The notes under the pieces are model-generated. The model was not told the DNA's origin. It saw only the letters and a list, made by a program, of their open reading frames with translations, and did not search any database. From Mycolicibacterium goodii (GTDB lineage Bacteria > Actinomycetota > Actinomycetes > Mycobacteriales > Mycobacteriaceae), in the NCBI RefSeq assembly GCF_022370755.2, contig NZ_CP092364.2, positions 2,046,001 through 2,110,000 on the forward strand: a stretch of 64,000 bases of DNA, read 5' to 3'. Below are positions 1 to 64,000 of the stretch, in pieces; position 1 is the first letter of the stretch, and each line of letters starts with the position of its first letter. The translations under genes and the position numbers were made by a program.

Positions 1-2339
1 GTCGCGTCGTCGAGATCGAAGAGCTCACCGAGTTCAAGAAGCCCATCCGGGCCTGCAAGGTCGACGTCGGCGAGCAGAACGTCGACGGGCAACCTCGCGA
101 CATCGTGTGCGGTGCACGCAACTTCGCGGTCGGTGACCTCGTCGTGGTGGCGCTGCCCGGTACCACGCTGCCCGGCGACTTCACGATCGGCTCGCGCAAG
201 ACCTACGGCAGGCTGTCCGACGGCATGATCTGCTCGGCCGCCGAGTTGAACTTCGGCACCGATCATTCCGGCATCATCGTGCTGCCGCCGGGGACCGCGG
301 AGCCCGGCGCCCCGGCCGCCGACGTGCTGGGCCTCGACGACGTGGTGTTCCACCTTGCCGTGACCCCGGACCGTGGCTACTGCCTGTCGGTGCGCGGCCT
401 GGCCCGCGAGATCGCGTGCGCCTACGACCTCGACTACGTCGACCCGGCCGACGTCGAACCGCTGCCCGCCGACGGCGAGGCGTGGCCGCTGACCGTGCAG
501 CCCGGCACGGGTGTGCAGCGCTTCGGGTTGCGCCCGGTCACCGGCATCGACCCGGCTGCGGTGTCGCCGTGGTGGCTGCAGCGTCGTCTGCTGCTGTCCG
601 GCATCCGCGCCATCTCACCCGCGGTCGACGTGACCAACTACGTGATGCTCGAGCTCGGGCATCCCATGCACGCGCACGACAGCAGCCTCATCACCGGTGC
701 GTTCGACGTGCGCTTCGCACGCGACGGCGAGAAGGTGGTGACGCTCGACGATGTCGAACGCACCCTGAACTCCGGCGACGTGCTGATCGTGGACGACGTG
801 GCGACCGCCGCGATCGGCGGCGTCATGGGTGCGGGCACCACCGAGGTACGCGAGACCACCACCGACGTGCTGCTCGAGGCCGCGGTGTGGGATCCGGCCG
901 CGGTGTCGCGCACCCAGCGTCGCCTGCATCTGGCCAGTGAGGCCGGACGCCGCTACGAGCGTTCGGTCGACCCGGCGATTTCGGTTGCGGCCCTTGACCG
1001 TTGCGCGGGCCTGCTGGCCGAGATCGCCGGCGGCACGGTGCAGCCCAAGCTCACCGACTGGCGCGACGGTGATCGCGAGGACTGGTCCGGCCCGGCCGTG
1101 CGGATCGCGCCCGACCTGCCCGATCGCACCGCGGGCGTCGAGTACCGGGCTGGCACCACCGCGCGCCGGCTCGCCCAGATCGGCGCCGTGGTCACCGAGA
1201 CCGACGGGGTGCTCACCGTGGTTCCGCCGAGTTGGCGGCCAGATCTGCGCCAGCCCGCCGACCTGGTGGAGGAGGTGCTGCGCCTCGAAGGGCTGGAGAT
1301 CATCCCGTCGGTGCTGCCGACCGCGCCTGCAGGCCGCGGCCTCACGCCGGTGCAGAAGCGTCGGCGCGCGATCGGCAAGTCGCTCGCGCTGGCCGGTTTC
1401 GTCGAGATCTTGCCGACGCCGTTCGTGGCCGCGGGCGTTTTCGATCTGTGGGGTCTGCCCGCCGACGACCCGCGCAGGCGCACCACCCAGGTGCTCAACC
1501 CGCTGGAGTCCGACCGCCCGCACCTGGCGAGCACGCTGCTGCCCGGCCTGCTGGAGGCGTTGAACCGCAACGTCTCCCGGGGGGCGGCCGACGTCGCACT
1601 GTTCGGCATCCAGCAGGTGGTGCACCCGACGGATGAGACCAGGGCGATCGAGCGCGTTCCCACCGACCGCAGACCCACCGACGAGGAGATCGCCGCGCTG
1701 GACGCGTCGCTGCCGCGGCAGCCGCAGCATGTCGCCGCGGTGCTCGCCGGGCTGCGGGAGCCGGCCGGGCCCTGGGGGCCGGGCCGGCCGGTGGAGGCCG
1801 CCGATGCGTTCGAGGCCGTGCGGGTGATCGGCCGTGCCGCCGGTGTGGAGTTCACGTTCCGCGCCGCGCAAGAGCTGCCGTGGCATCCCGGCCGGTGCGC
1901 CGAGATCCTGATCGGCGACACCGTCGTCGGCCACGCCGGTCAACTGCACCCCGCGGTGATCGAGCGGTCCGGCCTGCCCAAGGGCACGTGCGCGGTCGAA
2001 CTCGACCTGGATGCCGTGCCGATCGTCGAGATCCTGCCCGCGCCGTCGGTGTCACCGTTTCCTGCGGTGTTCCAGGACATCAGCGTGATCGTCGGGGACG
2101 ACGTCGCGGCAGCGGACGTGGTCGACGCGGTCCGCGGCGGCGCCGGTGAACTGCTCGAAGACGTACGGCTGTTCGACGTCTACACCGGCCCGCAGATCGG
2201 GGAAGGCCGCAAGTCCCTCACCCTGGCCTTGCGCTTCCGCGCCACCGACCGCACGCTCACCGAGGACGAGGCCAGCGCCGCACGCGATGCGGCCGTCGCC
2301 GCGGCAGCCGAGCGCGTCGGCGCGGTGCTGCGCGGCTGA
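1..2339 (+). CDS. pheT: Phenylalanyl-tRNA synthetase beta chain, 5' end cut by window
   Basis: Beta subunit of the alpha2beta2 class II synthetase that charges tRNA-Phe. The reading frame is open from base 3, so the true start is upstream; about 779 residues are visible against about 830 for the family. The visible part begins inside the N-terminal tRNA-binding OB fold ([11 protein letters not shown], then IVCGARNF). It continues through the B3/B4 editing domain ([24 protein letters not shown]), the B5 domain ([18 protein letters not shown]), the catalytic-like core ([20 protein letters not shown]) and the C-terminal FDX-ACB anticodon domain ([19 protein letters not shown]). A GTG at 105 is internal. 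The arginine genes follow after about 250 bp, as in M. tuberculosis. No damage is seen. Confidence 0.96.
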
Positions 2340-2410
2340 TCACCGCGCACCGCACGGGACTGGGCTGGGCACCTCGCACCTCGCGCCGCGCAGGTGCCTG
2401 GCCTGGCACC

Positions 2411-2537
2411 GCGAGCGTGCGTGTCAGCTTTGCGACACGCCGCGCAGGAGCAGCAGGCGGCGCACGCTCGATCGTCGCGAGCGTGCGCACGGCGCCGGTA
2501 GATGACGGCGCGTTGGGTGACAGACACGCACGCTCGC
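2411..2537. repeat. Cluster of four alternating CGAGCGTGCG inverted repeats
   Basis: The pheT-argC intergenic stretch holds four copies of a GCGAGCGTGCG core in alternating orientation: forward at 2411, reverse at 2460-2470, forward at 2477-2488 and reverse at 2523-2537. The outermost copies form a perfect 15-bp inverted repeat (GCGAGCGTGCGTGTC, 2411-2425, with 2523-2537). The middle pair forms an 11-bp hairpin (2460-2470 with 2478-2488). No T tract follows, so it is not an ordinary intrinsic terminator. It could be a dispersed intergenic palindrome or a factor-independent stop for pheT. Confidence 0.6.
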
Positions 2538-2557
2538 GCAGGCGTCGTTAATGAATT

Positions 2558-4824
<2,267 letters not shown>

Positions 4825-4828
<4 letters not shown>

Positions 4829-5702
4829 GCACCCCGTCCATCGACCGCGGGGTCAAGGCCGACGTCCTCGCCTCGGCACTGCCGTGGCTCAAGCAACTGC
4901 ACGGCAAGATCGTGGTGGTCAAGTACGGCGGCAACGCCATGACCGACGAGACGCTCAAGGCCGCGTTCGCCGCCGACATGGTGTTCCTGCGCAACTGCGG
5001 TATCCATCCCGTGGTGGTGCACGGCGGCGGCCCGCAGATCAGCGCGATGCTGAAACGGCTCGGCATCGAAGGCGATTTCAAGGGCGGCTTCCGCGTCACC
5101 ACCCCCGAGGTGCTCGACGTCGCACGCATGGTGCTGTTCGGCCAGGTGGGCCGCGAACTGGTCAACCTCATCAATGCGCACGGCCCCTACGCGGTCGGTG
5201 TCACCGGCGAGGACGCCCAGTTGTTTACCGCGGTGCGGCGCAACGTCACCGTCGACGGCGTGGCCACCGACATCGGCCTGGTCGGCGACGTCGAACACGT
5301 CAACGCCGGTTCACTGCTGGATCTCATTGCCGCCGGCCGTATCCCGGTGGTCTCCACCATCGCTCCCGACGCCGACGGCCTCGTGTACAACATCAACGCC
5401 GACACCGCGGCGGCCGCGTTGGCCGAGGCACTCGGCGCCGAGAAGCTCGTGATGCTCACCGACATCGAAGGTCTCTACACCGACTGGCCCGACCGCAATT
5501 CGCTGGTCAGCGAGATCGACACCGCCGCGCTGACCCAGCTGCTGCCGACCCTCGAATCGGGCATGGTGCCCAAGATCGAGGCGTGCCTGCGTGCGGTCAA
5601 CGGCGGTGTGCCGAGCGCGCACGTGATCGACGGCCGCGTCGAACACTGCGTGCTCGTGGAGCTTTTCACCGACGAAGGGACCGGAACCAAGGTGGTGCCC
5701 CA

Positions 5703-8301: not shown

Positions 8302-9501
8302 ATGTCCGAACGCGTCATCCTGGCGTACTCCGGGGGTCTCGATACCTCGGTGGCGATCAGCTGGATCGGCAAGGAAACCGGCAAGGAGGTCGTCGCCGTC
8401 GCCATCGACCTCGGCCAGGGCGGCGAGGATATGGAAGTGGTGCGTCAGCGCGCACTGGACTGCGGCGCCGTCGAGGCCGTCGTCGTCGATGCGCGCGACG
8501 AGTTCGCCGACGAATACTGCTTGCCGACAATCCAGTCCAACGCGCTCTACATGGACCGCTACCCGCTCGTGTCGGCGATCAGCCGGCCGTTGATCGTCAA
8601 GCATCTCGTCAAGGCGGCCCGCGAACACGGCGGCAGCGTCGTCGCGCACGGCTGCACCGGCAAGGGCAACGACCAGGTGCGGTTCGAGGTCGGATTCGCC
8701 TCGTTGGCGCCGGATCTCGAGGTGCTGGCCCCGGTCCGCGACTACGCGTGGACCCGCGAGAAGGCCATCGCGTTCGCCGAGGAGAACGCGATCCCGATCA
8801 ACGTCACCAAGCGTTCGCCGTTCTCGATCGACCAGAACGTCTGGGGCCGCGCGGTGGAGACCGGTTTCCTGGAACACCTCTGGAACGCCCCCACCAAGGA
8901 CGTCTACGACTACACCGAGGACCCCACCGTCAACTGGAGCACCCCTGACGAGGTCATCATCGGCTTCGAGAAGGGTGTCCCGGTCTCCATCGACGGCCGC
9001 CCGGTCACGGTGCTGCAGGCCATCGAGGAACTCAACCGTCGCGCGGGTGCGCAGGGTGTCGGCCGGCTCGACGTCGTCGAGGACCGTCTCGTCGGAATCA
9101 AGAGCCGCGAGATCTACGAGGCCCCCGGCGCCATGGTGCTCATCACCGCTCACACCGAACTCGAGCACGTCACGCTCGAACGTGAGCTCGGCCGGTTCAA
9201 GCGCCACACCGACCAGAAGTGGGGCGAGCTGGTGTACGACGGCCTGTGGTACTCGCCGCTCAAGCGCGCGCTGGAGGCGTTCGTCGCGCACACCCAGGAG
9301 CATGTCTCCGGTGAGATCCGGCTCGTCCTGCACGGGGGCCACATCGCCGTCAACGGCCGACGCAGTGCGGAATCGCTGTACGACTTCAACCTCGCGACCT
9401 ACGACGAGGGCGACAGCTTCGACCAGTCGGCGGCCAAGGGTTTCGTGCACCTACACGGTTTGTCGTCGCGGATCTCGGCCAAGCGCGACCTGGGTCTCTA
9501 G
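8302..9501 (+). CDS. argG: Argininosuccinate synthase
   Basis: Condenses citrulline and aspartate with ATP, the penultimate arginine step. The 399-residue type-I enzyme begins with the N-type ATP-pyrophosphatase loop AYSGGLDTS and holds the family motifs [13 protein letters not shown] and [14 protein letters not shown] strong ribosome-binding site (AAAGGAG) lies about 10 bases before the ATG. The gap from argR is only 25 bp and I see no ARG box or promoter in it, so it is probably read from the argC promoter. Confidence 0.97.
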
Positions 9502-10911
<1,410 letters not shown>

Positions 10912-10935
10912 TCCGCCGCGCGCCAGCGGGTGCCA

Positions 10936-10997
10936 CGCCGAGATTGAAGCCAGGGACAAGATCCGCGACCATCCTGTCCCTCAATGCAATCTCGGCG
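10936..10997. repeat. 62-bp imperfect palindrome after argH
   Basis: Outer arms CGCCGAGATTG (10936-10946) and CAATCTCGGCG (10987-10997) are perfectly complementary. Inner arms AGGGACAAGAT (10952-10962) and ATCCTGTCCCT (10971-10981) pair with one mismatch around an 8-base loop, and the internal loops between the arms are 5 bases on each side. No T run follows on either strand. The symmetric layout suggests a mobile or dispersed palindromic element, or a terminator between convergent argH and the minus-strand genes. Confidence 0.6.
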
Positions 10998-11069
10998 CAT
11001 GGCGATGCCCGGAGCGCCGCGCCCCTGTCCGACCGCGCCATCGCCCGATGCATGTCCATGACTGTGAGT

Positions 11070-11186
11070 CAGCTCGTCCAGTAACGCGCTCCCGACACCT
11101 CGGCTCCGCAGCTCAGGTACCACCGCGACTGCCAACTCCGACAGAAACACGTTTTCCGGGCGCAGAGCCGGATCGTGATGGATGTC
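11070..11186 (-). pseudogene. Remnant of a GNAT acetyltransferase
   Basis: On the minus strand, just downstream of the ABC-F gene, about 39 codons read as the acetyl-CoA-binding core of a GNAT acetyltransferase: NVFLSELAVAVVPELRSRGVGSALLDEL, broken here only by my reading limits, with the diagnostic R-S-R-G-V-G loop followed by a helix. No N-terminal part precedes it, and after the helix the frame turns into non-protein-like sequence running into the 10936-10997 palindrome. It looks like an acetyltransferase truncated at both ends. Chance resemblance is possible but unlikely given strand, beta 4 and the loop together. Confidence 0.5.
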
Positions 11187-11254
11187 CCGTGACGTGCCCG
11201 CCGGATCTCGACGCCCCGCGCTACAGGCCCGCACCGGCTACCGAAATAACCCCG

Positions 11255-13027
11255 CTACTCGAGCTGCTCGGACAGCTCCAGCCACCGCGCCTCGAGCTCG
11301 CCGACCTGGTTCTCCAACTCGCGGAGCTCGGCGGTGAGCTTGCCGAGGCCGACATGGTCGGATTGATCGTGTGAGGCGAGTTCTTCGTGTTTGGCCGCGA
11401 TCCGGTCGGCGAACTTTGCCAGTGACCGGTCGATCGAGGCGATCTCCTTTTCGATGTTGCGCAGCTCGGCACCCGAAAGCCCCTGTGAGGGCGTGGCTTC
11501 CGCCCGCGGCGCGGGCCGGTCCGCGCGCTGTGCGGCGAGCTTGAGGTACTCGTCGACGCCACCGGGAAGGTGACGCAAGCGGCCGTCGAGGATCGCGTAC
11601 TGCTGATCGGTGACGCGTTCGAGCAGATACCGGTCGTGGGACACCACGATCAGCGTGCCGGGCCAGGAATCCAGCAGATCCTCGGTGGCGGTCAGCATGT
11701 CGGTGTCGACATCGTTGGTCGGCTCGTCGAGCACCAGCACGTTGGGCTCCGACAGCAGCACGAGCATCAACTGCAGGCGTCTGCGCTGCCCGCCGGACAG
11801 TTCGCCGACACGCGTGGACAGTTGATCGCGCGCGAAGCCCAAACGCTCGAGCAGCTGCGCGGGCGTGAACTCTCTGCCGTCGATCTGGTACGTCGTCTGC
11901 AGACGGCCGACGACCTCGCGGACCATGTCGCCCGCGACCGCTTCGAGCTCGCTGGACTGCTGGTCGAGGATGGCCAGTTTCACGGTCTTGCCGCGCTTGA
12001 CCCGGCCGGTGGTCGGTGTGACGGTGCCCGCGATCAACCCCAGCAGGGTCGACTTGCCCGCGCCGTTCGCGCCGAGGATGCCGGTGCGCTCGCCGGGCGC
12101 GATGCGCCACTCGATGTCGCGCAGCACTTCTCGGCCGTCGTAGGTCACCGACACGTCGAGCAGGTCGATGACGTCCTTGCCCAGCCGGGCCATCGCGGCA
12201 CGCGACAGCTCGACGTTGTTGCGCAGCGGCGGGACATCGGAGATCAACGCGTTCGCGGCGTCGATCCGGAACTTCGGCTTCGAGGTGCGGGCGGGCGCAC
12301 CGCGCCGCAGCCATGCCAGTTCCTTGCGTAACAGGTTCTGCCGCTTGGCTTCCGCGGCGGCGGCCTGGCGGTCGCGCTCGACGCGCTGCAGCACGTAGGC
12401 GGCGTAGCCGCCTTCGAACGGTTCGACGATGCGGTCGTGGACTTCCCACGTCGTGGTCGCGACCTCGTCGAGGAACCAGCGGTCGTGGGTGATCAGCAGC
12501 AGCCCACCGGTCCCACGGGCCCAACGCTGTTTGAGGTGCTCGGCCAACCAGGTGATGCCCTGGATGTCGAGATGGTTGGTGGGCTCGTCGAGCGCCACCA
12601 CGTCCCATTCGCCGATCAGCAACGCGGCGAGCTGCACACGACGGCGCTGCCCACCGGACAGGGTCGAGATCACGGTGTCGAACGGGATGTCGGCGACCAG
12701 CCCGGCGATCACGTCACGCACCTTGGCGTCACCGGCCCACTCGTGTTCGGGGCGATCCCCGACGAGCGACCAGCCCACGGTGCGGTCGGACCGCAAGGTG
12801 TCGGTCTGATCCAGGGCGCCGACGCGAAGTCCGCTGCGGCGGGTGACCCGCCCCGAATGCGGCTCGATGCGCCCGGTCAGCAGGCCCATGAGCGTCGACT
12901 TGCCGTCGCCGTTGCGGCCCACGATGCCGATGCGGTCACCGTCGCTGACGCCGACGGTGACCGAGTCCAGGACCACCCCGGTGGGGTATTCCAGATGTAG
13001 GGCTTCGCCCCCGAGCAGGTGTGCCAT
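11255..13027 (-). CDS. ABC-F family ATPase (Uup/EttA-like)
   Basis: Soluble protein with two ABC cassettes and no membrane segments, the hallmark of ABC-F factors, which bind the ribosomal E site and act in translation or antibiotic protection. Of 590 residues, cassette 1 has GRNGDGKST, LSGGQRRR and LDEPTNHLD; cassette 2 has GANGAGKST, LSGGQRRR and LDEPTNDVD. An arginine- and lysine-rich linker (about residues 215-260) and a C-terminal coiled coil (about 510-590) complete a Uup-like architecture. The M. tuberculosis relative I recall, Rv1473, is annotated as a macrolide transporter, but the sequence supports a ribosomal factor. Divergent from the next gene with a 173-bp gap in which I see no clear operator. 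Confidence 0.9.
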   Translation of the reverse strand: MAHLLGGEALHLEYPTGVVLDSVTVGVSDGDRIGIVGRNGDGKSTLMGLLTGRIEPHSGRVTRRSGLRVGALDQTDTLRSDRTVGWSLVGDRPEHEWAGDAKVRDVIAGLVADIPFDTVISTLSGGQRRRVQLAALLIGEWDVVALDEPTNHLDIQGITWLAEHLKQRWARGTGGLLLITHDRWFLDEVATTTWEVHDRIVEPFEGGYAAYVLQRVERDRQAAAAEAKRQNLLRKELAWLRRGAPARTSKPKFRIDAANALISDVPPLRNNVELSRAAMARLGKDVIDLLDVSVTYDGREVLRDIEWRIAPGERTGILGANGAGKSTLLGLIAGTVTPTTGRVKRGKTVKLAILDQQSSELEAVAGDMVREVVGRLQTTYQIDGREFTPAQLLERLGFARDQLSTRVGELSGGQRRRLQLMLVLLSEPNVLVLDEPTNDVDTDMLTATEDLLDSWPGTLIVVSHDRYLLERVTDQQYAILDGRLRHLPGGVDEYLKLAAQRADRPAPRAEATPSQGLSGAELRNIEKEIASIDRSLAKFADRIAAKHEELASHDQSDHVGLGKLTAELRELENQVGELEARWLELSEQLE

Positions 13028-13200
13028 GGCACGTCGACCCTATCGTCCGGCGCCGCATGAAGCCGCCACCGGTCGGTCACGACCGTCGGCCGGAAGACGC
13101 GCGTGCGGAAGCGGCTGAACATTACCCGAAGCGTTCGCGTGCCGTTGTGCCATCATGGCCTCGTCGATCAGGGATCGGGGCGTGACGTGGGGAGCAAACT

Positions 13201-16200
13201 TTGGTGGATTTCTCGGCAGTGACCAAGCCCATCGAGCGGTTACTGGCGACAGCGCAGAACGGTCTGGAGGTGTTGCGCTACGGCGGTCTGGAGACCGGCG
13301 CGGTGCCATCCCCGTTCCAGATCATCCAGAGCGTGCCGATGTTCCGGCTGCGCCGGTACTTTCCGCCCGACGCGCGGCCCGGCGCCGAGCAGGTCGGCCC
13401 GCCGGTGCTGATGGTCCATCCGATGATGATGTCCGCCGACATGTGGGACGTGACGCGTGAATCCGGCGCGGTGGGCATCCTGCACCGCGCCGGTATCGAT
13501 CCCTGGGTGATCGATTTCGGCGAACCCGACAAGGTCGAGGGCGGCATGGAACGCACCCTCGCCGATCACGTCGTCGCGCTGAGCGAGGCCATCGACACCG
13601 TCCGCGAGGTGACCGGGCGCGACGTACATCTGGCCGGCTACTCACAGGGCGGGATGTTCGCCTATCAGACCGCGGCGTACCGACGCTCGAAAGACCTTGC
13701 GAGCATCATCGCGTTCGGCTCGCCTGTCGACACGCTCGCGGCGCTGCCGATGAACCTGCCGTCGAGCATCGCGCCGGCGGCGGCGGACTTCATGGCCGAT
13801 CACGTCTTCAGCCGGATCGACATCCCGGGGTGGCTCGCGCGCACCGGCTTCCAGATGCTCGACCCGATCAAGACCGCGCAGTCGCGCATCGATTTCCTGC
13901 GCCAACTGCACGACCGCGAGGCCCTGCTGCCGCGTGAACAGCAGCGCCGCTTCCTCGCGTCCGAGGGATGGATCGCGTGGTCCGGCCCGGCGATCTCGGA
14001 ACTGCTCAAGCAGTTCATCGCGCACAACCGGATGATCACCGGCGGCTTTTCGATCCACGGAGATCTGGTGACGCTCTCCGACATCGACTGCCCGATCCTG
14101 GCGGTGGTGGGCGAGGTCGACGATATCGGCCAACCGGCGTCGGTCCGCGGTATCAAGCGCGCCGCCCCACAGGCCGAGGTGTACGAATACCTGATCAGGG
14201 CAGGACATTTCGGCCTTGTCGTGGGTTCGAAGGCGTCCGAGCAGACCTGGCCCACCGTCGCGCGGTGGGTGAAATGGCTCGAGAGCGGCGAGCCGATGCC
14301 AGAAGGCGTCGTCCCCATGGCCACCCAGCCGGCCGACCAGCACGAGGGTGGCGTCTCGATCGCGTCGCGCATCACCCACGGCGCCAATGCCGCCACCGAG
14401 GTGGCCTTCGAGGTGGCCCGGTCGGCCGCCGGTGCGCTGGTCACCGCCAACAAGTCGGCGCGCACCCTCGTCGTCGAGACCGCGCGGACACTGCCGAGGC
14501 TCGCGCGCCTCGGTCAGGTCAACGACCACACCCGGATCTCGCTGGGCCGCATCATGAGTGAGCAGGCCCGCAACGCCCCCAACGGGGAGGCCCTGCTTTT
14601 CGACGGCCGCGTACACACCTACGAAGCGGTGGATCGACGCATCAACAACGTGGTGCGTGGCCTGATCGACGTGGGCGTGCGGCAGGGCGCACACGTCGGT
14701 GTCCTGATGGAGACCCGTCCCAGCGCACTGGTGGCCATCGCGGCGCTGTCGCGTCTCGGCGCGGTCGCCGTGCTGATCCCGCCCGACGTCGATCTGCCCG
14801 AGGCGGTTCGCCTGGGCGGGGTGTCCGAGATCATCGCCGATCCCAGCCACCTGGAGTCCGCTCTCGAACTCGACGTGCGGGTGCTGGTGCTGGGCGGCGG
14901 GGAGGACCGCAACCTCAATCTGCCCGAGGGCGCCGACGTCACCGACATGGAACAGATCGATCCCGAGCGCGTCGAACTGCCCGGGTGGTACCGGCCCAAC
15001 CCGGGCCTGGCACGCGATCTCGCGTTCGTCGGCTTCAGCACGATCGGCGGCGAGCTGATCCCGCGGCAGATCACCAACTACCGGTGGGCGCTGTCGGCGT
15101 TCGGGACCGCGTCGGCGGCCAACCTCGGCCGGGCGGACACCGTGTACTGCCTCACCCCGCTGCACCATCAGTCCGGGCTGCTGGTGAGCCTCGGCGGCGC
15201 GGTGGTCGGTGGTTCGCGCATCGCGCTGTCGCGGGGTCTGCAACCGAACCGGTTCCTGCAGGAGATCCGCCAGTACGGCGTCACCGTGGTGTCCTACACG
15301 TGGGCGATGCTGCGCGAGGTGATCGACGATCCGTCGTTCAGGCTGACCGGCAGCCATCCGGTCCGGCTGTTCATCGGTTCGGGTATGCCTGCCGGACTGT
15401 GGAAACGCGTCATCGAGGTGTTCGAACCGGCCCAGGTCGTCGAGTTCTTCGCCACCACCGACGGCCAGGCGGTACTCGCCAACGTGGCCGGCCACAAGGT
15501 CGGCAGCAAGGGACGTCCGCTGCCCGGCGGCGGTCAGATCGAACTGGCCGCCTATGACCCCGACGACGACCTCATCCTCGAGGACCATCAGGGCTTCGTC
15601 CGCCGGGCCGACGCCAACGAGGTCGGGGTGCTGCTGGCGCGTCCGCGCGGCCCGATCGACCCGACCGCGGTGGTCAAACGCGGTGTCTTCGCACCCGCCG
15701 ACACCTGGGTGTCGACGGAATACCTGTTCCGCCGGGACGAGGATGGTGACTACTGGCAGGTGGACAACCGCGGCTCGGTGATCCGCACCGAGCGTGGACC
15801 CGTGTTCGCCACGACCGTCAGCGACGCCGTCGGGCGCCTCAACGCCGTCGACATGGCGGTCACTTACGGCGTGGACCTCGGTGACCGTGAGGTGGCGGTC
15901 ACCGCGTTGGCGCTGCGACCCGGCGGCAGCATCCCGACGGCCGATCTCACGTTGGCGCTCACCGAACTGCCGGTCGGCCATTCGCCTGATTTCGTCCACG
16001 TCGTGCCCGACATGGAACTCAGCGCGACGTACCGGCCCCTGGTCGCACCGCTGCGGGAGGCGGGGATCCCGAAACCGCACCGGCGTAACTCTTGGTACTT
16101 CGACGCCGATACAGGGACGTACAAGAGGTTGACCCAGGCCGTGCGCGCAGAGCTGGCCGGGGACGACAAAGACGACGCCGCGGTGCCTTCGCAGAAGGCG

Positions 16201-47603: not shown

Positions 47604-47680
<77 letters not shown>

Positions 47681-54224: not shown

Positions 54225-54752
54225 GTGATCTGGGGCGATCTCACGATCCTGGCCGGCGTGATGGCGCTTTCGTTCGGGGCATGCGTGTTCGTCTACGTCA
54301 CCCGGCTGGAGAACCGGACGCCCGCTGCACTGGGCGAACAGGTGGGTGCCCACAAGGCGGTGCTGGCCAAGGTGCGCAAGCGTCAACCGTTGACCCGGGA
54401 CGAGTTCGAATACGCCACCGAGCTGGTGACCGACGCCCGGTCACCGCTGGCGTACGCCATCCCGGCCGTCCTGTTCAGCATGGGGTTCTTCTACGTGGTC
54501 GGCTGCCTCTACGAGTTGCATGTGCACGGTGGGAATCCGTCGTTCCGCACGTTCATCGGCGGTATCCCGATGTTGACCTCGATGAACATCGCCGCCCAAC
54601 TGCGCCGTGTCGCGCGGTTGAAGAACAAGCTGCGCGACGCCGCAGTGATCGCACCTGAGCCGGAAACCGAACCAGAAACGCAGACCCGGAGCAACTTTCA
54701 CTTGCGCGACGGTGCGACCGCGGGATCGTCGTCCTCCCACAGCAACAGTTGA
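54225..54752 (+). CDS. Small membrane protein of unknown function
   Basis: The 175-residue protein has an N-terminal membrane helix ([20 protein letters not shown]), a charged cytosolic linker ([27 protein letters not shown]), a second helix ([20 protein letters not shown]) and a polar, Ser-rich tail. No family recognised. It starts at GTG 54225 with an AAGGCAAGGGGG purine run upstream; a 6-bp inverted repeat GGTTCT/AGAACC lies at 54153-54180. Its last 55 bases overlap the end of the convergent MmpL gene, so the tail may be uncertain. Confidence 0.65.
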
Positions 54753-57586
54753 CGCACCGCGGCGCGGGAACCGTACGGCTGCAGCATCTGGCTGGCCGGA
54801 CGGGGCCGCACCCGCAGTGGCCACCAGAACCAGCGGCCGAGCAGCGCGGCGATCGACGGCGTCATGAACGAACGCACGATCAGCGTGTCGAACAGCAGAC
54901 CCAGAGCGATCGTCGTCCCGATCTGGCCGAGCACCCGCAGGTCGGCGAAGATGAACGACGCCATGGTGGCCGCGAATACGAGGCCGGCTGCCGTGACCAC
55001 CGAGCCGGAACCGGCCATGGCGCGGATGATGCCGGTGTTGAGCCCGGCGCCGATCTCCTCCTTGAAGCGGGAGATCAGCAGCAGGTTGTAGTCCGACCCC
55101 ACGGCCAGGAGCAGGATCACGGCCAGCGCCAACACGATCCAGTACAACTCGATGCCGAGAATCTCCTGCCAGATGAGCACCGACAGCCCGAACGAGGCGC
55201 CCAACGACAGCGCCACGGTGCCCACGATCACGAGCGCTGCGACCACGCTGCGGGTGATGAACAACATCACCAACAGGATCAGGGTGAGGGCCGCGATGGC
55301 GGCGATCATCAGATCGTATTTCGCGCCGTCGGCGATGTCCTTGTAGGTGGCCGCGGTGCCGGCGAGGTAGATCTTGGACCCGGCCAGAGGTGTGCCCTTG
55401 ACGGCCTCCTTGGCGGCGTGCCTGATGGCGTCGATGTGCGAAATGCCTTCGGGCGTGGCCGGATCGCCCTCATGGGTGATGATCAGGCGAGCCGCTTTAC
55501 CGTCCGGGGACAGGAACAACTTGAGACCGCGCTGAAATTCGGGGTTGGTGAACGCTTCCGGCGGTAGGTAGAAGGAGTCGTCCACCTTCGCCGCGTCGTA
55601 GGCCTGGCCCAGCGCGGTCGAGTTCTGCAGCGCCGCGGCAGCCTGATCGTTGAGCCCCGAGGTGGTGGCGTAATTGGTCAAAGTCAGATCGCGGTTTGCC
55701 TGCTGACTGGCGATCTGCGGTGGAATCAGCGCAAGCAGTTTCGGTTGCAGCTCATCGAGTTTGGCGATGCTGCCCGAGACATTGGCCAACTGATCGGTCA
55801 ATTCGTCGATACCGTCGAGGGCGTCGAACACCGACCGCAGCGCCGCGCACATCGGGATGTCGAAGCAGTGCGGCTCCCAGTAGAAGTAGTTGCGGATCGG
55901 GCGGAACTGGTCGTCGAAGTTGGCGATCTTGTCGCGCAGATCTTTGGCGGTGGCCACGGTCTGCTGAAACGCCTCGGACTGCTCATGGGTGATCGCGCCG
56001 GACTGCTGCTGCAGCGCATACTGCTGGCGCAGAACGTCGATCGAGTTGTTGATCACGTCGACCTGCTTGAGCAGGTCTTCGCCGCGGGCCTGCTGGAAGG
56101 GCAGATTGTTGATCTGCGATGCGCTGCCCGAGCTGATCTGGAAGGGAATCGACGTGTGGTCCAACGGTGTTCCCAGCGGTCGCGTGATCGATTGCACCTG
56201 CGCGATGCCGTCGGTGTGGAAGACCGCCTTGGCGACCCGCTCCAGAAGGATCATGTCGGTGGAATTGCGCAGGTCGTGATCGGCTTCGATCATCATCAGC
56301 TCCGGGTTCAGCCGGGCCTGCGAGAAGTGGCGCTCGGCGGCCGTGTAGCCCACGTTGGCCGGAGCGTCGGCGGGCATGTAGGGCCGGGTGTCATAACTCG
56401 TGGTGTAGCGCGGTAGGGCCAGCAGACCGATCAGCGCGACCGCGATGGTGACGACCAGAACCGGTCCGGGCCAGCGCACGATGGCGGTGCCGATGCGTCG
56501 CCAGTTCTGCGTCCGCAACGGGCGGTTGGGCTCGAACAAGCCGAAATGCCGACCGATCACCAGCACGGCCGGGGCCAGCGTCAATGCCGCCGCCACCGCG
56601 ACCAGCACGCCGATACCGGCCGGAACCCCGAGACTCTGGAAATAGGGGAGCCGGGTGAAGGTGAGGCACAGCACCGCCCCGGCAATCGTCAGACCCGATC
56701 CAAGGATGACGTGTGCGGTGCCGTGGTACATCGTGGTGAACGCGGTGACGCGGTCCTGGCCGGCGTAGCGCGCCTCGTGGAAACGGCCCAGGATGAAGAT
56801 GGCGTAATCGGTGCCTGCGGCGATCACCAGCAACGTCAGCAGATTGGTGGAGTACGTCGAGAGTTCGATGATGCCGGCGTTGGCCAGCACCGCGACCACA
56901 CCGCGCGAGGCGGTCAATTCGATCATCACCGTGAACATCACCAGGATGACCGTGGTGACGCGGCGGTAGAGCCAGAGCAGCATCACCGCGATCACCCCGA
57001 GCGTGATGATCGTGGTTTTCAAGGTGCCCTGGCGCCCGACCTCGAATTGATCGGTGACCAGGGGTGCGGCGCCGGTGACATAGGCCCGGATCCCGGGCGG
57101 CGGCGGTGTGTCGTCGACGATGGCTCGCACCGCGTCGACGGATTCGTTGGACAGCGACTCGCCCTGGTTGCCCGCCAGGTAGATCTGCACCAGCGCCGCT
57201 TTGCCGTCGGTGCTCTGCGAGCCGGCGGCGGTCAGCGGATCTCCCCAGAAGTCCTGGATGTGCTGCACGTGCGTGGTGTCCTGGGACAGTTTGCGGATCA
57301 AGCCGTCGTAGTAGTGGTGCGCGTCGGCGCCGAGCGGCGCGTCGCCCTCCAGGACGATCATTGCCGAACTGTCGGAATCGAATTCGTCGAACACCGCGCC
57401 TATGCGCTTGGCGGCCTGCAGTGATGGCGCATCCTGGGGACTCAGCGAGACGTTGTGCGATTCGGCGACGGTCTCCAACTGCGGAACGAACACGTTCGTC
57501 ACCACGGCCAGACCGAGCCAGAACAGCGCGATGATCACCGAGAACCGCCGGATCAGGTCCGGAATCGCCGACAGACGCGCGCTCAT
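54698..57586 (-). CDS. MmpL-family RND lipid transporter
   Basis: Inner-membrane RND permease of 962 residues, in the size range of MmpL4/MmpL5-type proteins. It has an N-terminal transmembrane helix ([20 protein letters not shown]), a large periplasmic loop, a block of about five helices including the family motif [16 protein letters not shown], a second long periplasmic loop with coiled coil (about 430-640), and a final helix block with [15 protein letters not shown]. The Asp-Tyr pairs in both blocks are the proton-relay residues of MmpL3-type transporters. The ATG overlaps the mmpS stop (ATGA). Likely exporter of the adjacent NRPS product. Confidence 0.93.
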
Positions 57587-58029
57587 CCGGACTTGTCCAG
57601 GCAGAAGGTGTAGGCATTCACGGTGTTCACCCACCTTTCGTCCTTGACGACGTCATCGATGGTGATTCGGCATCCGATCGAACTGCTGTCGCCCTGCGCT
57701 GCGACGTTGGCGAAAACTGCAGGCTGGGTGGTGGTCGTGTCGTAGGACCAGGGCAGCGGGACGTTGTCCGCGCGTTGTGGTTGCGCATCGACGTCCAGGT
57801 AGGTGATGGTGGCCACCGTGCCCGGCGGTCCCATGACCTCCAACACCACGTGTTTCGGGTTGAACGGAACGATCTCGTTGCCGGAGCCGCTTGGCGTGGA
57901 TGTCACGTCTTGAGAGGCGAACACGCCGTGCAGCCGGTACACCGCGAATCCGGATACCGCGAGCACGACCACCGCCACCAGGGGCATCCAGTGTCTCCTG
58001 AGTCGACTTCCCATCGGAAACCGCTGCAT
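57583..58029 (-). CDS. MmpS-family accessory protein
   Basis: Membrane-anchored periplasmic partner of MmpL, 148 residues. It has an N-terminal helix ([25 protein letters not shown]) and a beta-sandwich domain with family marks [22 protein letters not shown] and [23 protein letters not shown], ending in two cysteines ([18 protein letters not shown]). An AAAGG site lies 7 bases before the ATG at 58029; 21 additional upstream codons are unconserved. It precedes and overlaps mmpL and follows the NRPS gene after 144 bp in which a separate promoter is possible. Confidence 0.92.
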
Positions 58030-58173
58030 TCGTGACCCTTTCGACGTGCGGCGGCATGCGCGGACGGAGGTTCCCATAGGGTGGCTAATCAACCAGGTTG
58101 ACGTTACGACAATGGGCCCGACACCACAACCGTGGATGTGGAGTGTTCAGGCGGAGGTTCTGCCGCAGGCTGT

Positions 58174-61100
58174 CTACGCGGATCGCGGTGTCGACAACGG
58201 GTGGGGATCGAGCAGACCCATCCGCTGCAGATCAGTGACGTACTTGACGATGATCGCGGGCGTGATGTGGGGGATGTCGGTTTCGGGGCCTGTCGTGTCG
58301 CCGCCGATCCGGTACTCACGAACCGCGGCACGGAACCTCTCGGTGGGACCGTAGGCGCCGAGCGTCGGTTCTGGAGGTTGCAGATCGGTGGTGAGATCCA
58401 GGCCGTAACGGGCCGCGAGAATCTGCAGCACCGAATGCCGGCGCTGTCTGTCGGGAAGTGCGCGCAATGCGGTCTCGAAGCGTCGCAACCATTCTCCGAA
58501 ATCTGCGATGCGCTGGATCGGATACCCGGCCTCGATGAGCCAGTCGACGTACTGGTCGGCTCCGATGCCGTCGTCGTGCGGGTTCATCACGTGATAGGTC
58601 TCGAATCCGTGCAACGCGCATTTGCTGAGGGTGGCGATCGCCTCCGCGACGAAGCCGACCGGCAGTGCATCGTAGTGGGCGCGTTGCCGCTGGCCCGCGG
58701 CATCGAGTCGATAGAACGATGCCGGCGCCACGCCGGTCGCGACGACGCTCAGCACCATACGGGTGAAGTTGTCGGGGAGGTTCAGCTGGCCGACATAGGT
58801 TGTGTCGGTGAGGATCATGTCGCAGCGGAATACCCGGACCGGGATTTCACACAGGTCATGTGCCTCCCGCAGCAGAACCTCGGCCGCCCACTTGCTGTTG
58901 CCGTAGCCGCTGGCATATCCGGCGTCGACGCGGCGGATCGGACTGATGACGCGGATGTCGGCATCCTCGGTGAACACGGCAGGCTCGATCTGCTGACGCA
59001 CGTCCGCGGTGGACACATACGAGTACGACTTGAGCTTGGTGGTGAGGGCGAACCGGATCACCTCGGCGGTGCCTGCGACGTTGGGACCGAAAAACTCCTG
59101 GTAGGGCAGGATGCCGTTGACGAAGCCCGCGGAATCGACGATCAGATCCACCGACGCCGCGAGCTCGGTCCAGACCGCCTCGTCGAGGCCGAGCGCGGCT
59201 GCGCTCTTGTCACCGGCCACCACGCGTATCCGGTCTTCCGACAGCTGCCGGAAGCGTGTCAGCAACACCGGATCTCCGCTGTCGAACACCTTCTCGAGCC
59301 GCTCACGGGCCTCGGTGTCGGAGGCTGCCCGCACCAGGCACACCAGCGTCCCGTCGACAGGTTTCAGGCGCTGCAGCCATTCGAGGACCAGGAAACGCCC
59401 GAGGAATCCGGTCGCCCCGGTCAACAGCACTGTGCGGATCTGTCCACCCGAGCGGGGAAGAGCCGGCGCAGCTGCCAACGTCGCCGGGTCGATGAACTTT
59501 TCCAGGGTGAGGTCGGTGGCACGTATCTCGGTGACATCGCCGGACCCGTGCACTGTTTCCACCGTCGCGCCGTGTGCCGCCAGCGTGTCGGTCCCGTGTT
59601 CGTCGTCGACGCGCCGGCTCACGGCGTGCACCGACGGCGACTGCAGGAGATCCTGGACGCCGACGTGCGCGTCGAGCGCGGTGTTGATCGCGGCGACGCA
59701 CCGCATGGCGGAGATCGAATCGCCACCGAGGTCGAAGAACGAGTCATCGAGGCCGACCCGCTCGACACCGAGGATCTGCCCGTAAACACTCGCGACCACC
59801 TTCTGGGTCCGGGTGGCGGGTGGGCGATAGGTGCGAGCAAACTGGTACTCGGGTGTGGGAAGCGCTCGTTGGTCGAGTTTGCCGTTCACCGTCACCGGCA
59901 AGGTGTCCAGCCGAACCACGGCAGCCGGAATCATGTAGGGCGGCAATCGATCGGCGAGTCGCGTTCGGGCCTCGGCCGGATCGACCGTTCCGGTGACGTA
60001 GCCGACCAGCCGCTTGTCACCGGGGTGGTCCTCGCGCACGATGACGGCCGCCTGGTCCACCCCGTCGAGATCGGCGAGCGCACTTCGGATCTCGCCGAGT
60101 TCGATCCGGAATCCGCGGATCTTCACCTGATCGTCGACCCGGCCGAGGTACCGCAACTGGCCGTCGGCGCCCCAGCGTGCCAGATCACCGGTGCGATACA
60201 TCCGCGTCCCCGGTGCCCCGAACGGACACGCCACGAACCGCGACGCGGTCATGCCTGCGCGGTTCAGGTAGCCGACACCGACGCCCAGGCCCGCCACGTA
60301 CACCTCACCGACCACTCCCAGCGGCACCGCGCGCAACCACGGGTCGAGGACGAAGACGGCGGCGCCGGGCACGGGTACGCCGATCGGGACATCTCCCGCG
60401 GCGTCCTGTGTCAGTGGCGCGCTGGCGGTGGCGGATACCGCGGTCTCGCTCGGGCCGTACAGATTGGCCATCGTCCGGCCCGGCGCCCACCGCTTGACCA
60501 CCTCGCTGGGGCAGGCCTCGCCGCCGACCAGCAGCGTGAGACCGTCGAGGTCGGTTTCCACCAGCGCAGCCGCCGCTGCCGGGGTCTGACAGAGCACCGT
60601 GGCGCGTTCGGCCAGCAGGAGGTCATGCAGATCCTGCGGTGAGTTCGTGACCGACTCCGGTACCACCACGAGCCGTCCACCGTGCAGCAGAGCCGCCCAC
60701 ATCTCCCACACCGAGAAGTCGAAACCGTATGAGTGGCACTGTGTCCACACCTGATCCGGCCCGAATTCGACCCCGGCGTGCGGAGCGTCGAAGAGCCGGG
60801 TGACGTTGCGGTGAGTGAGCGCGACGCCTTTCGGTCGCCCAGTGGTTCCCGATGTGTAGATGATGTACGCGATGTCGTCGGGATCGGGCGACAACAGCGT
60901 GGTGGCGGTGACAAGGGATGTCGCCGGGTCATCGACTTCGAGGATCGCCCCGTCGAAGTCCACGAGCCGGGGCTGCAACCCATCGGTGGTGATCGCTGCC
61001 AACGGTCCGGTGTCCTCGAGCATGAACCGCACGCGCGACGACGGCGCGGCCGGATCGATCGGCAGATACGCCGCCCCGGTCTTGAGCACGGCCAGGATCG

Positions 61101-64000
61101 CCACGATCGCCTCGGCGCTGCGCGGCAGCATGATCGCCACGGAGTTTCCCGGCGCCGCACCGTGCAGCGCCAGCAGATTCGCCAAGCGGTTCGCCATTTC
61201 GTCGAGTTCGGTGTAGCTCATCGACTCGCCGTCGCACGTCACTGCCGTCGCGTAGGGGGTCCTTGCGACCTGGGCCGAGAAGCGATCGACCAGCGACGCG
61301 CGTTCACCGTTGTGCTGGCGCAGTCGTTCCCGACGACACCAAGTGTCGATCCGCTGCTGCTCGTCGCCGCAGAGAACATCGATCGAGGCGACATGTCGTC
61401 CGGGATCCTCGACCATCGCCGACAACACGCGCTGGAAGCGCTCGAGCAGCGCATCGATGTCCCCGGACCCGTAGGCGGCCGTGTCGAACTCGGCTCGCAG
61501 CCCGATCTCGTGGCCGGGTATGGCGACGACCGTCAGGGGGTAGTGGTTGTGCTCGCTGGTGGTGAAGTCGGTGATCGTGAGCTCATGCGCACCCGCGAAC
61601 GCCCCGGCGTCGAACGGATAGCTCTCGTACACGAAGAGGGTGTCGAAGAGTTGATCGTGACCGGTGAGCCGATGAATCTCGCTGAGCGAGAGGTGCTCAT
61701 GGTCGACGGTGGCGTTGTGAAACTCCTGCAGCTGGTCCAGCAGGCCGGTGACCGTCGCCGTCGGCGTGATGCGGGCGCGCACCGGAACGGTGTTGATGAG
61801 CAGGCCGACAAGGGAATCCGATCCCGCCAGCTCGGCGGGACGTCCCGACACCGCGGTACCGAACACCACGTCGCGCTGACCGGTCAACGCCAGCAGCAAT
61901 TGCGCCCAGACGGCCTGCAGGACCGTGTTGACCGTGGTGTGGCAGGTGCGTGCCAACTCTGCGGCCGCGCGGGTCAACTCGGCGGGGATCTGTCGGGACC
62001 GGACATCGCGCGGCCCGGGCGGGGTCGGGGGAGTGAGCAGCGTCGGAGTGGTGAACCCGTCCAGCACCTCGCACCAGGCCGCGTGTGCGGCCTTCTGATC
62101 CTGGGCGGCCAGCCAGTCGATGTAGGTGCGGTACGACCCGGCAGGAGGTAGACGATGTTCGAAGTAGGCGCCGAACAGCTCTTCCAGCAGGACCGGAAGG
62201 GACCAGCCGTCGATCACGATGTGATGGAAGGTCATCACGAACCGGTGCCGGTTGCCGGCGGTGCGGATGAGCGCCGCACGGAACGTCGGCCGCGCGGACA
62301 GGTCGCACACCGCGGCCCGCTCCGCCGCGCACACCTTTTCGATTTCCGCTTCGGGGGGCCGGTCGTCCTCGCGCAGGTCCATGTATCGCCAAGCCATGAC
62401 CGGGTGGGCCGGTATCACCTGCACCGGGGTGCCGAACTGTCCGCAGAAACGCGCGACGAGGTTGGGATGACGCCGCAGCACGGTGTCGAGTGCGTCGTAC
62501 AGCCGGTCGGCGTCGAGCACGCCGGTGACGGTGATGTCGAGCTGCATCGAGTACACGTCGGTCGGCGCATCACCCGGCCCGACCATGGAGTGGAAGAACA
62601 GACCCTGCTGTAGCGGGGTGAGCGGCAGGATGTCGACGATACGGTGCTGCTCGGCGAGCTCGTCGATCTGCTGCTGGGTGAGTCGTGCGGGTGCGATATC
62701 GGACGGAGAGAGCCCGCCGCCTCCCCGCCGCACGTGCGCACAGATGCCGCGCAGGGCGTCGAACCACAACTCGCTCAACCGTTTCACCTGCGCTTCGTCC
62801 ACGCTGGACGGCGCCCAGGTCCACGCTGCCCGCAGTGCCGGTCCCGGCCGGTCGGCCTGCGGGCCGAATTCCATGGTGCCGGCGTTGAGTTCCACCGTGT
62901 GCATCAACGGCATGGGGACCGCCGAGACCGCGTCGGCCAACCCCAACCCGTCGGGGGCTACCCGCCACAGTCCCTGTGACGGGTGGTCGGCACCGAGCCG
63001 TCCCAGATAGTTGAAGCCGATGGTGGGTTCCGGGCCGCGCAGATCCACCTCGGGGTTGAGGTAGCGCAGCATTCCGTAGGACGTCTCGTCGGGGAGGTTG
63101 CGCAGCTGCTCCTTGGCCGCCTTGATCACCGTGCCGAGTTCGGCCGCACCGTCGCGGACGAGGTCCCACGCAAGGACGCCCAGGGTGAGCGCGACGGGGT
63201 ACTTCGTGGTGAACCAGCCCACGGTGCGGGAAAGGTCGAGGTCCTCCCCGATGCGCTCGCCGAGCTGTTCGGCCCGTCCGTGGCCCTCGACATCGATCGC
63301 GAGCGGGGCCCCGCCGTTGCGGAGAAACTCGTTCCACGCCAATGCGTATGCGATGAGCATGATGTCGCCGACCCCGGCGTGAAACGCATTGGGCACCTCA
63401 CCGAGCAGCTGACGGGTGGTCTCGGTGTCCAGTGAGATCGTCAGGTGCCCGGCACACGCGTAGGTGTCCACCGCCGGTTTCACCGCCGGCATCCCGCGCG
63501 GGGTGGCAAGCACCCGCTGCCAGGCGTCCGCGTGGGCGACGACGTCCGGAGTGCACGCTTGTGCCTGCAACAGTGCGGACCAGCGGGCGAACGACGTCCC
63601 CTCGGAGGGGAGCACCACCGGTCGATCGGAGCGACGTTGGCCCCACGCGATGTTGCAGTCCTCCACCAGGATCCGCCATGACACCCCGTCCACCGCGAGA
63701 TGATGGATCACCAGGGCCAACTGGCGGGTGCGGGGCGCCCACAACGCCGAAAGCATGCGGCCGGCAGCCGGATCGAGCCGCGAACGTGCCGCGGAGAGCG
63801 CCTCTGCGGACAAGGTGTCGACCGTCCGGACGCAATCGGCTGCGCGCACGGCGCCGGGCTCCAGCACCGGCAGCGATGGACCGTCGCCGGGCACCTGGAG
63901 CCGCAAGGTGGGGTGGTGATCCAACAGCGCCTGGACCACGCCCACCACGTCGGTGATCTGGGGACCGGCCGCATCCTCGGGAGCCTGTAACACCAGCGTC
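58174..64000 (-). CDS. Nonribosomal peptide synthetase, terminal E-C-A-T-reductase part (N-terminus beyond window)
   Basis: The visible 1941 residues run past the right edge. Domains in order, numbered from GTG 63993: epimerization (about 1-430; [25 protein letters not shown]), condensation (445-890; HHIVIDGW), adenylation (900-1410; [27 protein letters not shown]), peptidyl carrier (Ser about 1426 in LGGDSISAM) and a thioester reductase (1515-1939; [16 protein letters not shown]). The reductase end should release the peptide as an aldehyde or alcohol. The last-module layout is that of Mps2 of glycopeptidolipid synthesis, which adds alaninol. By eye the adenylation code reads D-F-W-C-L-G-L-V-S, with K assumed; no assignment is offered. 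Followed by mmpS-mmpL. Confidence 0.94.

Follow-up and report, generated by a model that had tools for sequence, protein, structure and literature searches.

Introduction

In several mycobacteria, glycopeptidolipids (GPLs) influence the form of the colonies, the properties of the surface and contact with the host. A reductase-ended nonribosomal peptide synthetase (NRPS) of another kind is the bimodular Nrp of M. tuberculosis (Rv0101), which is not known to have an epimerization (E) domain and is encoded within an isonitrile lipopeptide cluster, next to genes for an acyl ligase, an acyl carrier protein (ACP), an oxidase and a thioesterase. Here we analyze an NRPS gene at the end of a 64,000-nucleotide stretch of Mycolicibacterium goodii DNA (the whole stretch, hereafter the window, being bases 2046001-2110000 of a single-contig mycobacterial genome of 6.74 Mb), where the 3' part of the gene is followed on the minus strand by mmpS and then mmpL. 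Judged by its domains and its place in a protein tree, the enzyme is a stand-alone paralogue of the GPL synthetase Mps2. We tentatively propose, with a probability of roughly 45%, that it is an alternative C-terminal subunit fed by Mps1, which would give a GPL-like peptide with an end other than alaninol.

According to the available parts of two sources (PMC1885439, PMC3537567), the GPL locus has the gene order mbtH, mps1, mps2, gap, and PMC3537567 also describes the peptide, made up of D-Phe, D-alloThr, D-Ala and L-alaninol. The available part of PMC11978893 states that all producers share one and the same deduced product of the first GPL locus. The terminal residue is known to vary, since valinol or leucinol may replace alaninol in the GPL of M. 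abscessus according to the accessible portion of PMC10400925.

Domain architecture of the synthetase

The gene starts at genome position 2111922, 1922 bases past window base 64000, and the sequence beyond the window adds one unit of an adenylation (A) and a thiolation (T) domain. The parts that lie in the window, including the E domain, the condensation (C) domain and the terminal reductase (R) domain, are as follows.

58174..64000, minus strand: 3' part of the NRPS gene (full gene at genome positions 2104174-2111922, 2582 amino acids (aa))
62683..64000, minus strand: epimerization domain, residues about 620-1080, with HHLAVDG at residue 740
61351..62634, minus strand: condensation domain, residues 1097-1524, with HHIVIDG at residue 1233
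59833..61281, minus strand: second adenylation domain, residues about 1548-2030, with the code DFWALGLVSK
59611..59793, minus strand: second thiolation domain, residues 2044-2104, with GGDS at residue 2066
58174..59535, minus strand: terminal thioester reductase domain, with TGATGFLG at residue 2168, YGNSK at residue 2340 and a short tail after GLL

The full protein thus reads A-T-E-C-A-T-R and lacks an N-terminal C domain. By Pfam, window positions 58174-63993 (minus strand) hold Condensation (in two stretches), AMP-binding, PP-binding and NAD_binding_4 (thioester reductase type) domains, which bears out the E-C-A-T-R order, followed by mmpS and mmpL on one strand, that an earlier note on this DNA had described. 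The first condensation-like domain matches TIGR01720, and this match and the sequence motif of the domain we take to be the marks of epimerization. The gene is intact, and with GGDS of the first T domain at residue 566 its T, E, C, T and R motifs are all there. Among solved structures, carboxylic acid reductases and the R domain of Nrp (4DQV, E 2.5e-184) are nearest in sequence to the reductase domain.

Phylogeny and distribution of the stand-alone genes

A scan gave many NRPS genes, with at least 80 loci among the matches listed. Among the 23 of these that were looked at, an Mps2-like frame stood directly behind another long NRPS frame in 17, while stand-alone frames were found in M. peregrinum (L054), M. 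septicum (L055) and Mycobacterium sp. URHD0025 (L056); those of M. triplex (L049) and G074 (L132) also stand alone but are of other kinds. A reductase-domain search of 396 genomes retained 31 genomes at E <= 1e-199, which were inspected apart from eight (G099, G116, G223, G268, G282, G318, G325 and G379). Altogether, a stand-alone gene of the focal type was identified in ten genomes (G000, G344, G353, G086, G021, G192, G298, G176, G272 and G127), the last three of which apparently correspond to M. peregrinum, M. septicum and URHD0025.

A maximum-likelihood tree of 36 proteins unites all ten stand-alone genes, three of which are represented by pieces, in a single group (SH-aLRT 100) that falls among the GPL Mps2 proteins when viewed from more distant NRPS rows. 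An earlier tree of 31 proteins is concordant; both were made by a quick method without bootstrap and with a midpoint root. The group does not include the gene that stands alone in G050 (L142), nor the additional Mps2-type genes of M. barrassiae, G039 and G169. The tail after GLL is, among the aligned proteins, confined to the stand-alone clade. No neighborhood is common to the whole clade, and the open-licence literature, searched by titles and abstract openings without supplements, yielded no description of stand-alone Mps2-type genes.

The GPL locus of this genome is at 5.43-5.48 Mb, and its mps1 is 3.3 Mb from the focal gene. The locus encodes an MbtH protein, Mps1 (3426 aa), Mps2 (2556 aa), a Gap-like protein (Pfam SfLAP) and a glycosyltransferase, the gene names being assigned here from position and domains, and one mmpS and two mmpL genes lie near it at 5.470-5.476 Mb. 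Mps1 ends in a C domain, and Mps2 is A-T-E-C-A-T-R with the A domain first. The focal NRPS as the GPL locus itself is thereby ruled out, in agreement with the earlier note, which had set it apart from the mps1-mps2 locus.

A third NRPS locus of the genome, at C1:3085001-3125882 (3.085-3.126 Mb; L010, L011 and L012), encodes an MmpL, an MbtH protein, a polyketide synthase and two NRPSs of 5531 and 5065 aa, the latter with a reductase end. It resembles the variable second GPL-like loci of other mycobacteria, as these are presented in the available part of PMC11978893.

Adenylation domain codes

Codes were read at the PheA positions by alignment to the first A domain (A1) of the focal protein. 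The loci at hand held 342 A domains, of which 6 without D as the first code letter were dropped, leaving 336. The codes of the genome's own Mps1 (DAWSVVGICK and DYWSVGMVHK) and Mps2 (DVWSIAAIYK and DVWSVAAIYK) agree with D-Phe, D-alloThr, D-Ala and L-alaninol.

The focal A1 code, DVWSVAAVYK, is alanine-type, as in GPL Mps2, and the nine other stand-alone genes have DVWSVAA[IV]YK at this place. The second A domain (A2) is not of this type: its code is DFWALGLVSK in the focal protein, DFWAMGLVSK in G344 and DYWAMAG[IV]YK in the other eight. Among the 336 codes the one of G344 comes nearest to the focal A2 code (9/10 positions; next best 7), which also matches DFWSVGMVHK, a code like that of the Mps1 Thr position (DYWSVGMVHK), at six positions. 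As read from these codes, the first module is alanine-like and the last module has diverged across the stand-alone genes. Such constancy of A1 and variation of A2 between sub-clades would be expected if the entry module were tied to Mps1 and the last were free. The Mps2 of M. chelonae (L043) likewise departs in A2 (DIWSIAGIYK). An origin of A2 by domain swap was considered and discarded, as identity along the protein shifts moderately and shows no clear recombination joint.

The earlier note had suggested a second, distinct terminal-alcohol peptide. Its reductase end stands, and a terminal alcohol other than alaninol is plausible; the new lipopeptide cluster that came with the suggestion is not supported by the neighboring ORFs examined.

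Relation to Mps1 and doubled Mps2 genes

Mps1 was found in all ten carriers of the stand-alone gene (best matches E <= 3.4e-294, frames of 3427-3531 aa), against a background of 23 out of 98 genomes (E <= 1e-272) in a sample of the genus that includes G000, G021 and G086; for one of these 23 (G071) the match lies in a frame of 8697 aa, and some matches come from short contigs. The N-terminal linker of the focal NRPS is conserved, as in Mps2. The stand-alone gene is intact in seven of the ten genomes, and dN/dS, obtained by a simple counting method over six overlapping stand-alone pairs that share members, is 0.17-0.24, so that these genes are under purifying selection.

In the proposed role as a subunit fed by Mps1, the first module would load alanine and epimerize it to D-Ala, the second would add a residue other than alanine, and the reductase would free the chain as an amino alcohol in the GPL-like manner. 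The enzyme would act in trans on acyl-D-Phe-D-alloThr from Mps1, as an alternative GPL end piece, because it starts, like Mps2, just past the terminal C domain of Mps1. GPL-like lipids ending in a different amino alcohol would be the product, with the MbtH protein, acylation and glycosylation borrowed from the GPL locus.

Several points weigh against this proposal. The focal gene is 3.3 Mb away from mps1, and linkers like the conserved one at the N-terminus are also part of the A domain. Comparisons among GPL Mps2 proteins likewise show A1 as the domain that is best conserved, so its conservation here is only mildly telling, and the co-occurrence with Mps1 is suggestive only, because the ten carriers amount to about three tree lineages and not to ten independent events. 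In addition, the frames are broken in three of the ten genes (L155, L196 and L056), and three GPL Mps2 pairs have a lower dN/dS of 0.08-0.16; the function of the stand-alone genes is therefore not strongly kept. Lastly, an A-T-E start can initiate a peptide alone, as in GrsA, so the missing N-terminal C domain does not force a partner.

The main rival reading, rather unlikely in our view, is that the NRPS works alone and releases a free D-Ala-X dipeptide as an aldehyde or amino alcohol, perhaps to be modified and exported. The absence of both an N-terminal C domain and a nearby partner gene would suit it, as would a whole enzyme in one gene that is intact in most of the carriers, and a minimal aldehyde-generating, reductase-ended NRPS is described in the available part of PMC7586950. 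Such an enzyme would, however, leave unexplained both the alanine-type A1 and the presence of Mps1 in every carrier, and no evident modifying genes adjoin the NRPS.

The broken frames, one of which is from a single-contig assembly, and the lack of a common neighborhood across the clade would fit a slowly decaying mps2 duplicate without a present role. In the broken cases a sequencing error is possible, and mps1 and mps2 are open in the same three genomes. We regard decay as very improbable, given the seven intact genes, the motifs kept in the focal protein, the dN/dS values and A2 codes that are consistent within sub-clades.

A case parallel to the proposed subunit fed by Mps1, and the clearest hint that one Mps1 may serve two end subunits, is the GPL locus of G169, where one Mps1 (at the search sensitivity used) is followed by two Mps2-type genes. 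The second of these genes has the A domain first, an alanine-type A1 and the A2 code DAWSAVAMCK, which is near the Mps1 Phe-position codes of the focal genome (DAWSVVGICK) and of M. chelonae (DVWSAVAMCK). The two genes lie at 2-5701 and 8316-15971 of the examined stretch (L222, G169:C2:19000-38900), with a relative of a glycosyltransferase between them; the first, with a frame of 2555 aa, is cut by the end of that stretch. M. barrassiae (L046, 20316-27581) and G039 (L137, 7005-14639) likewise have a second gene of the Mps2 type near the GPL locus, in both cases with DVWSVAAMCK in A1.

A more general form of the idea, possible but held loosely, is that a single Mps1 can supply at least two interchangeable terminal synthetases, some of them encoded megabases apart. 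GPL producers would then have a set of exchangeable last modules with which to vary the terminal amino alcohol of their surface lipids, and one trend would have led separately to the stand-alone clade and to the doubled Mps2 genes in some GPL loci.

The MmpS-MmpL pair

The features downstream of the NRPS gene are these.

58085..58129, minus strand: promoter-like TTGTGG-N17-TAACGT with the palindrome TCAACCTGGTTGA (58089-58101), before mmpS
57583..58032, minus strand: mmpS, Pfam Mycobact_memb (PF05423), likely ATG start at 58032
54698..57634, minus strand: mmpL, RND transporter, Pfam MMPL (PF03176), closest solved relatives MmpL4 and MmpL5
54225..54752, plus strand: open reading frame (ORF) of 175 aa, convergent with mmpL, no Pfam match

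Adjacent genes with PF05423 and PF03176 place the pair in the MmpS-MmpL RND exporter family. Its position behind the NRPS had been read as one biosynthesis-export unit making a new lipopeptide, which we consider improbable. All three genes are on one strand, with 81 bases from the NRPS stop to the longest mmpS frame (57583-58092, with a TTG start at 58092, overlapping the palindrome), and the linkage is found in four genomes of two sub-clades. Furthermore, a paralogous MmpS-MmpL pair is convergent to gap at the mps2-gap end of the GPL locus in L051 and in G086 (L213), a second association with GPL-type synthetases, where the upstream element differs and consists of repeated GTACC.

Distribution speaks against such a unit. 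MmpS relatives occur in 133 of the 396 genomes (E <= 1e-62). In 60 mmpS-centered regions from 56 genomes, mostly those of the best-scoring matches with a few picked, an MmpL match follows mmpS in 59 (it is missing in L198, and split or partial in L188 and L189) and a relative of the 175-aa ORF neighbors mmpL in 45, while a focal-type NRPS stands directly before mmpS in two (L155 and L196), or in 4/62 when the focal locus and L128 are added. In L189 an NRPS some 12 kb upstream matches less well (51% across one fifth of the protein). Conversely, the stand-alone NRPS is away from the pair in six of the ten genomes: a close mmpS is present at a distance from it in G021, G192, M. peregrinum, M. septicum and URHD0025, and in G298 there is no MmpS or MmpL match near the gene and no close MmpS in the 396-genome search.

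The upstream element argues in the same direction. This recurring element consists, in the focal case, of TTGTGG, 17 bases and TA[AC]CGT, and of the palindrome TCAAC-N(2-4)-GTTGA, found exactly in 37 of 63 mmpS upstream regions, 33 of these without the NRPS in front. It is therefore very probable that mmpS-mmpL is driven by a promoter of its own and was here before the NRPS. The palindrome follows just after the -10-like hexamer and is possibly a repressor site. A search of the genome with the 17-base form gave one perfect site and two with two mismatches, and the reversed control gave as many of the latter. No second copy of the element was found near the NRPS start. A shared operator of NRPS and mmpS was likewise dropped, no common element being found.

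The link between NRPS and MmpS-MmpL drawn in the earlier note thus stands as adjacency on one strand, and is weakened by a pair that is widespread without the NRPS and by a synthetase that is mostly elsewhere. The neighboring MmpS-MmpL is probably an older, independently regulated exporter, which may or may not serve the NRPS.

Genomic surroundings

Upstream of the NRPS are two ORFs without Pfam matches, of 219 and 183 aa. The former (L006:12302-12961, minus strand) has no NCBIfam match either, and relatives of it were observed near mmpS in the NRPS-less regions L171, L185, L211 and L212. Next come, on the other strand, an S8 peptidase, a trypsin-endonuclease fusion and an Acyl_transf_3 protein (L006:17238-18560), the last of which is 5 kb off behind the protease genes, and still further out a cytochrome b561 ORF and a catalase-type ORF. 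Beyond mmpL, the plus strand carries the 175-aa ORF, a fatty acid hydroxylase type protein, an AraC-type regulator and an AHSA1 protein, and continues with a helix-turn-helix protein and two short-chain dehydrogenases.

The earlier note had looked to the sequence beyond 64000 for upstream modules, an MbtH gene and glycosyltransferases of a new lipopeptide cluster. Apart from the one A-T unit, none of these was found among the neighboring ORFs examined on both sides, and the four MbtH genes of the genome, at 1.42, 3.09, 5.45 and 5.86 Mb, are all away from the NRPS. As no examined neighbor belongs with it, a new multi-gene lipopeptide cluster was rejected. An identity with the Nrp (isonitrile) cluster was also dropped, since no acyl ligase, ACP, oxidase or thioesterase gene was found among the neighboring ORFs run through Pfam.

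The same note had placed the genes in an accessory setting next to a possible tRNA integration scar. A tRNA-Pro gene is situated at 47604-47680, at a distance of 7 kb to mmpL and of 10.5 kb to the NRPS, but no repeat of its 3' end was found in the window or the 10 kb beyond it (<= 3 mismatches allowed). An integrative element at this gene was accordingly discarded, and the accessory setting is not borne out either, the mmpS-mmpL block being a widespread locus.

Comparison with known systems

What is observed is an Mps2-type synthetase that is intact, stands alone and is altered in its last A domain; it is present in a minority of mycobacteria, all of which in this dataset have Mps1. If the proposal is true, the end group would not be fixed by the GPL locus alone, given a conserved set of orphan enzymes of the Mps2 type in which the last A domain is changed, and the stand-alone clade would be a natural test of an NRPS line exchanging its final subunit in trans.

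The exporter is closest, among solved structures, to MmpS4-MmpL4 and MmpS5-MmpL5. Within its own genome the focal MmpL stands apart, with 58% identity to the two mmpL products near the GPL locus and <= 59% to the other MmpL proteins.

Nrp and the focal enzyme are both bimodular and reductase-ended, but the latter has an E domain and is without recognized neighbors of the isonitrile type. The GL8P locus of M. abscessus is similar in that it, too, belongs to a GPL producer and is a GPL-like NRPS locus additional to the classical one; in the available part of the source (PMC11978893), however, it comprises a bimodular and a hexamodular NRPS, glycosyltransferases, MbtH and transporters, whereas a single bimodular gene makes up the focal locus. 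M. barrassiae (L046), G039 (L137) and G169 (L222) each have an extra Mps2-type terminal synthetase as well, near one Mps1-Mps2 pair, but these second genes arose on other branches of the tree and are found within or next to the GPL locus.

The closest system is GPL Mps2 itself. The likeness extends to the A-T-E-C-A-T-R order, a length of about 2550-2590 aa, the N-terminal linker, the alanine-type A1, the reductase end and the tree position, and mean identity to 14 GPL Mps2 proteins is 64-72% depending on the domain, with 55-66% for the two short T domains. The focal gene differs from it in standing neither behind mps1 and mbtH nor before gap, in lacking, among the neighboring ORFs examined, the glycosyl-, methyl- and acyltransferase and MbtH set of the GPL biosynthetic locus (the Acyl_transf_3 ORF 5 kb off aside), and in having another A2 code and the short C-terminal tail after GLL.

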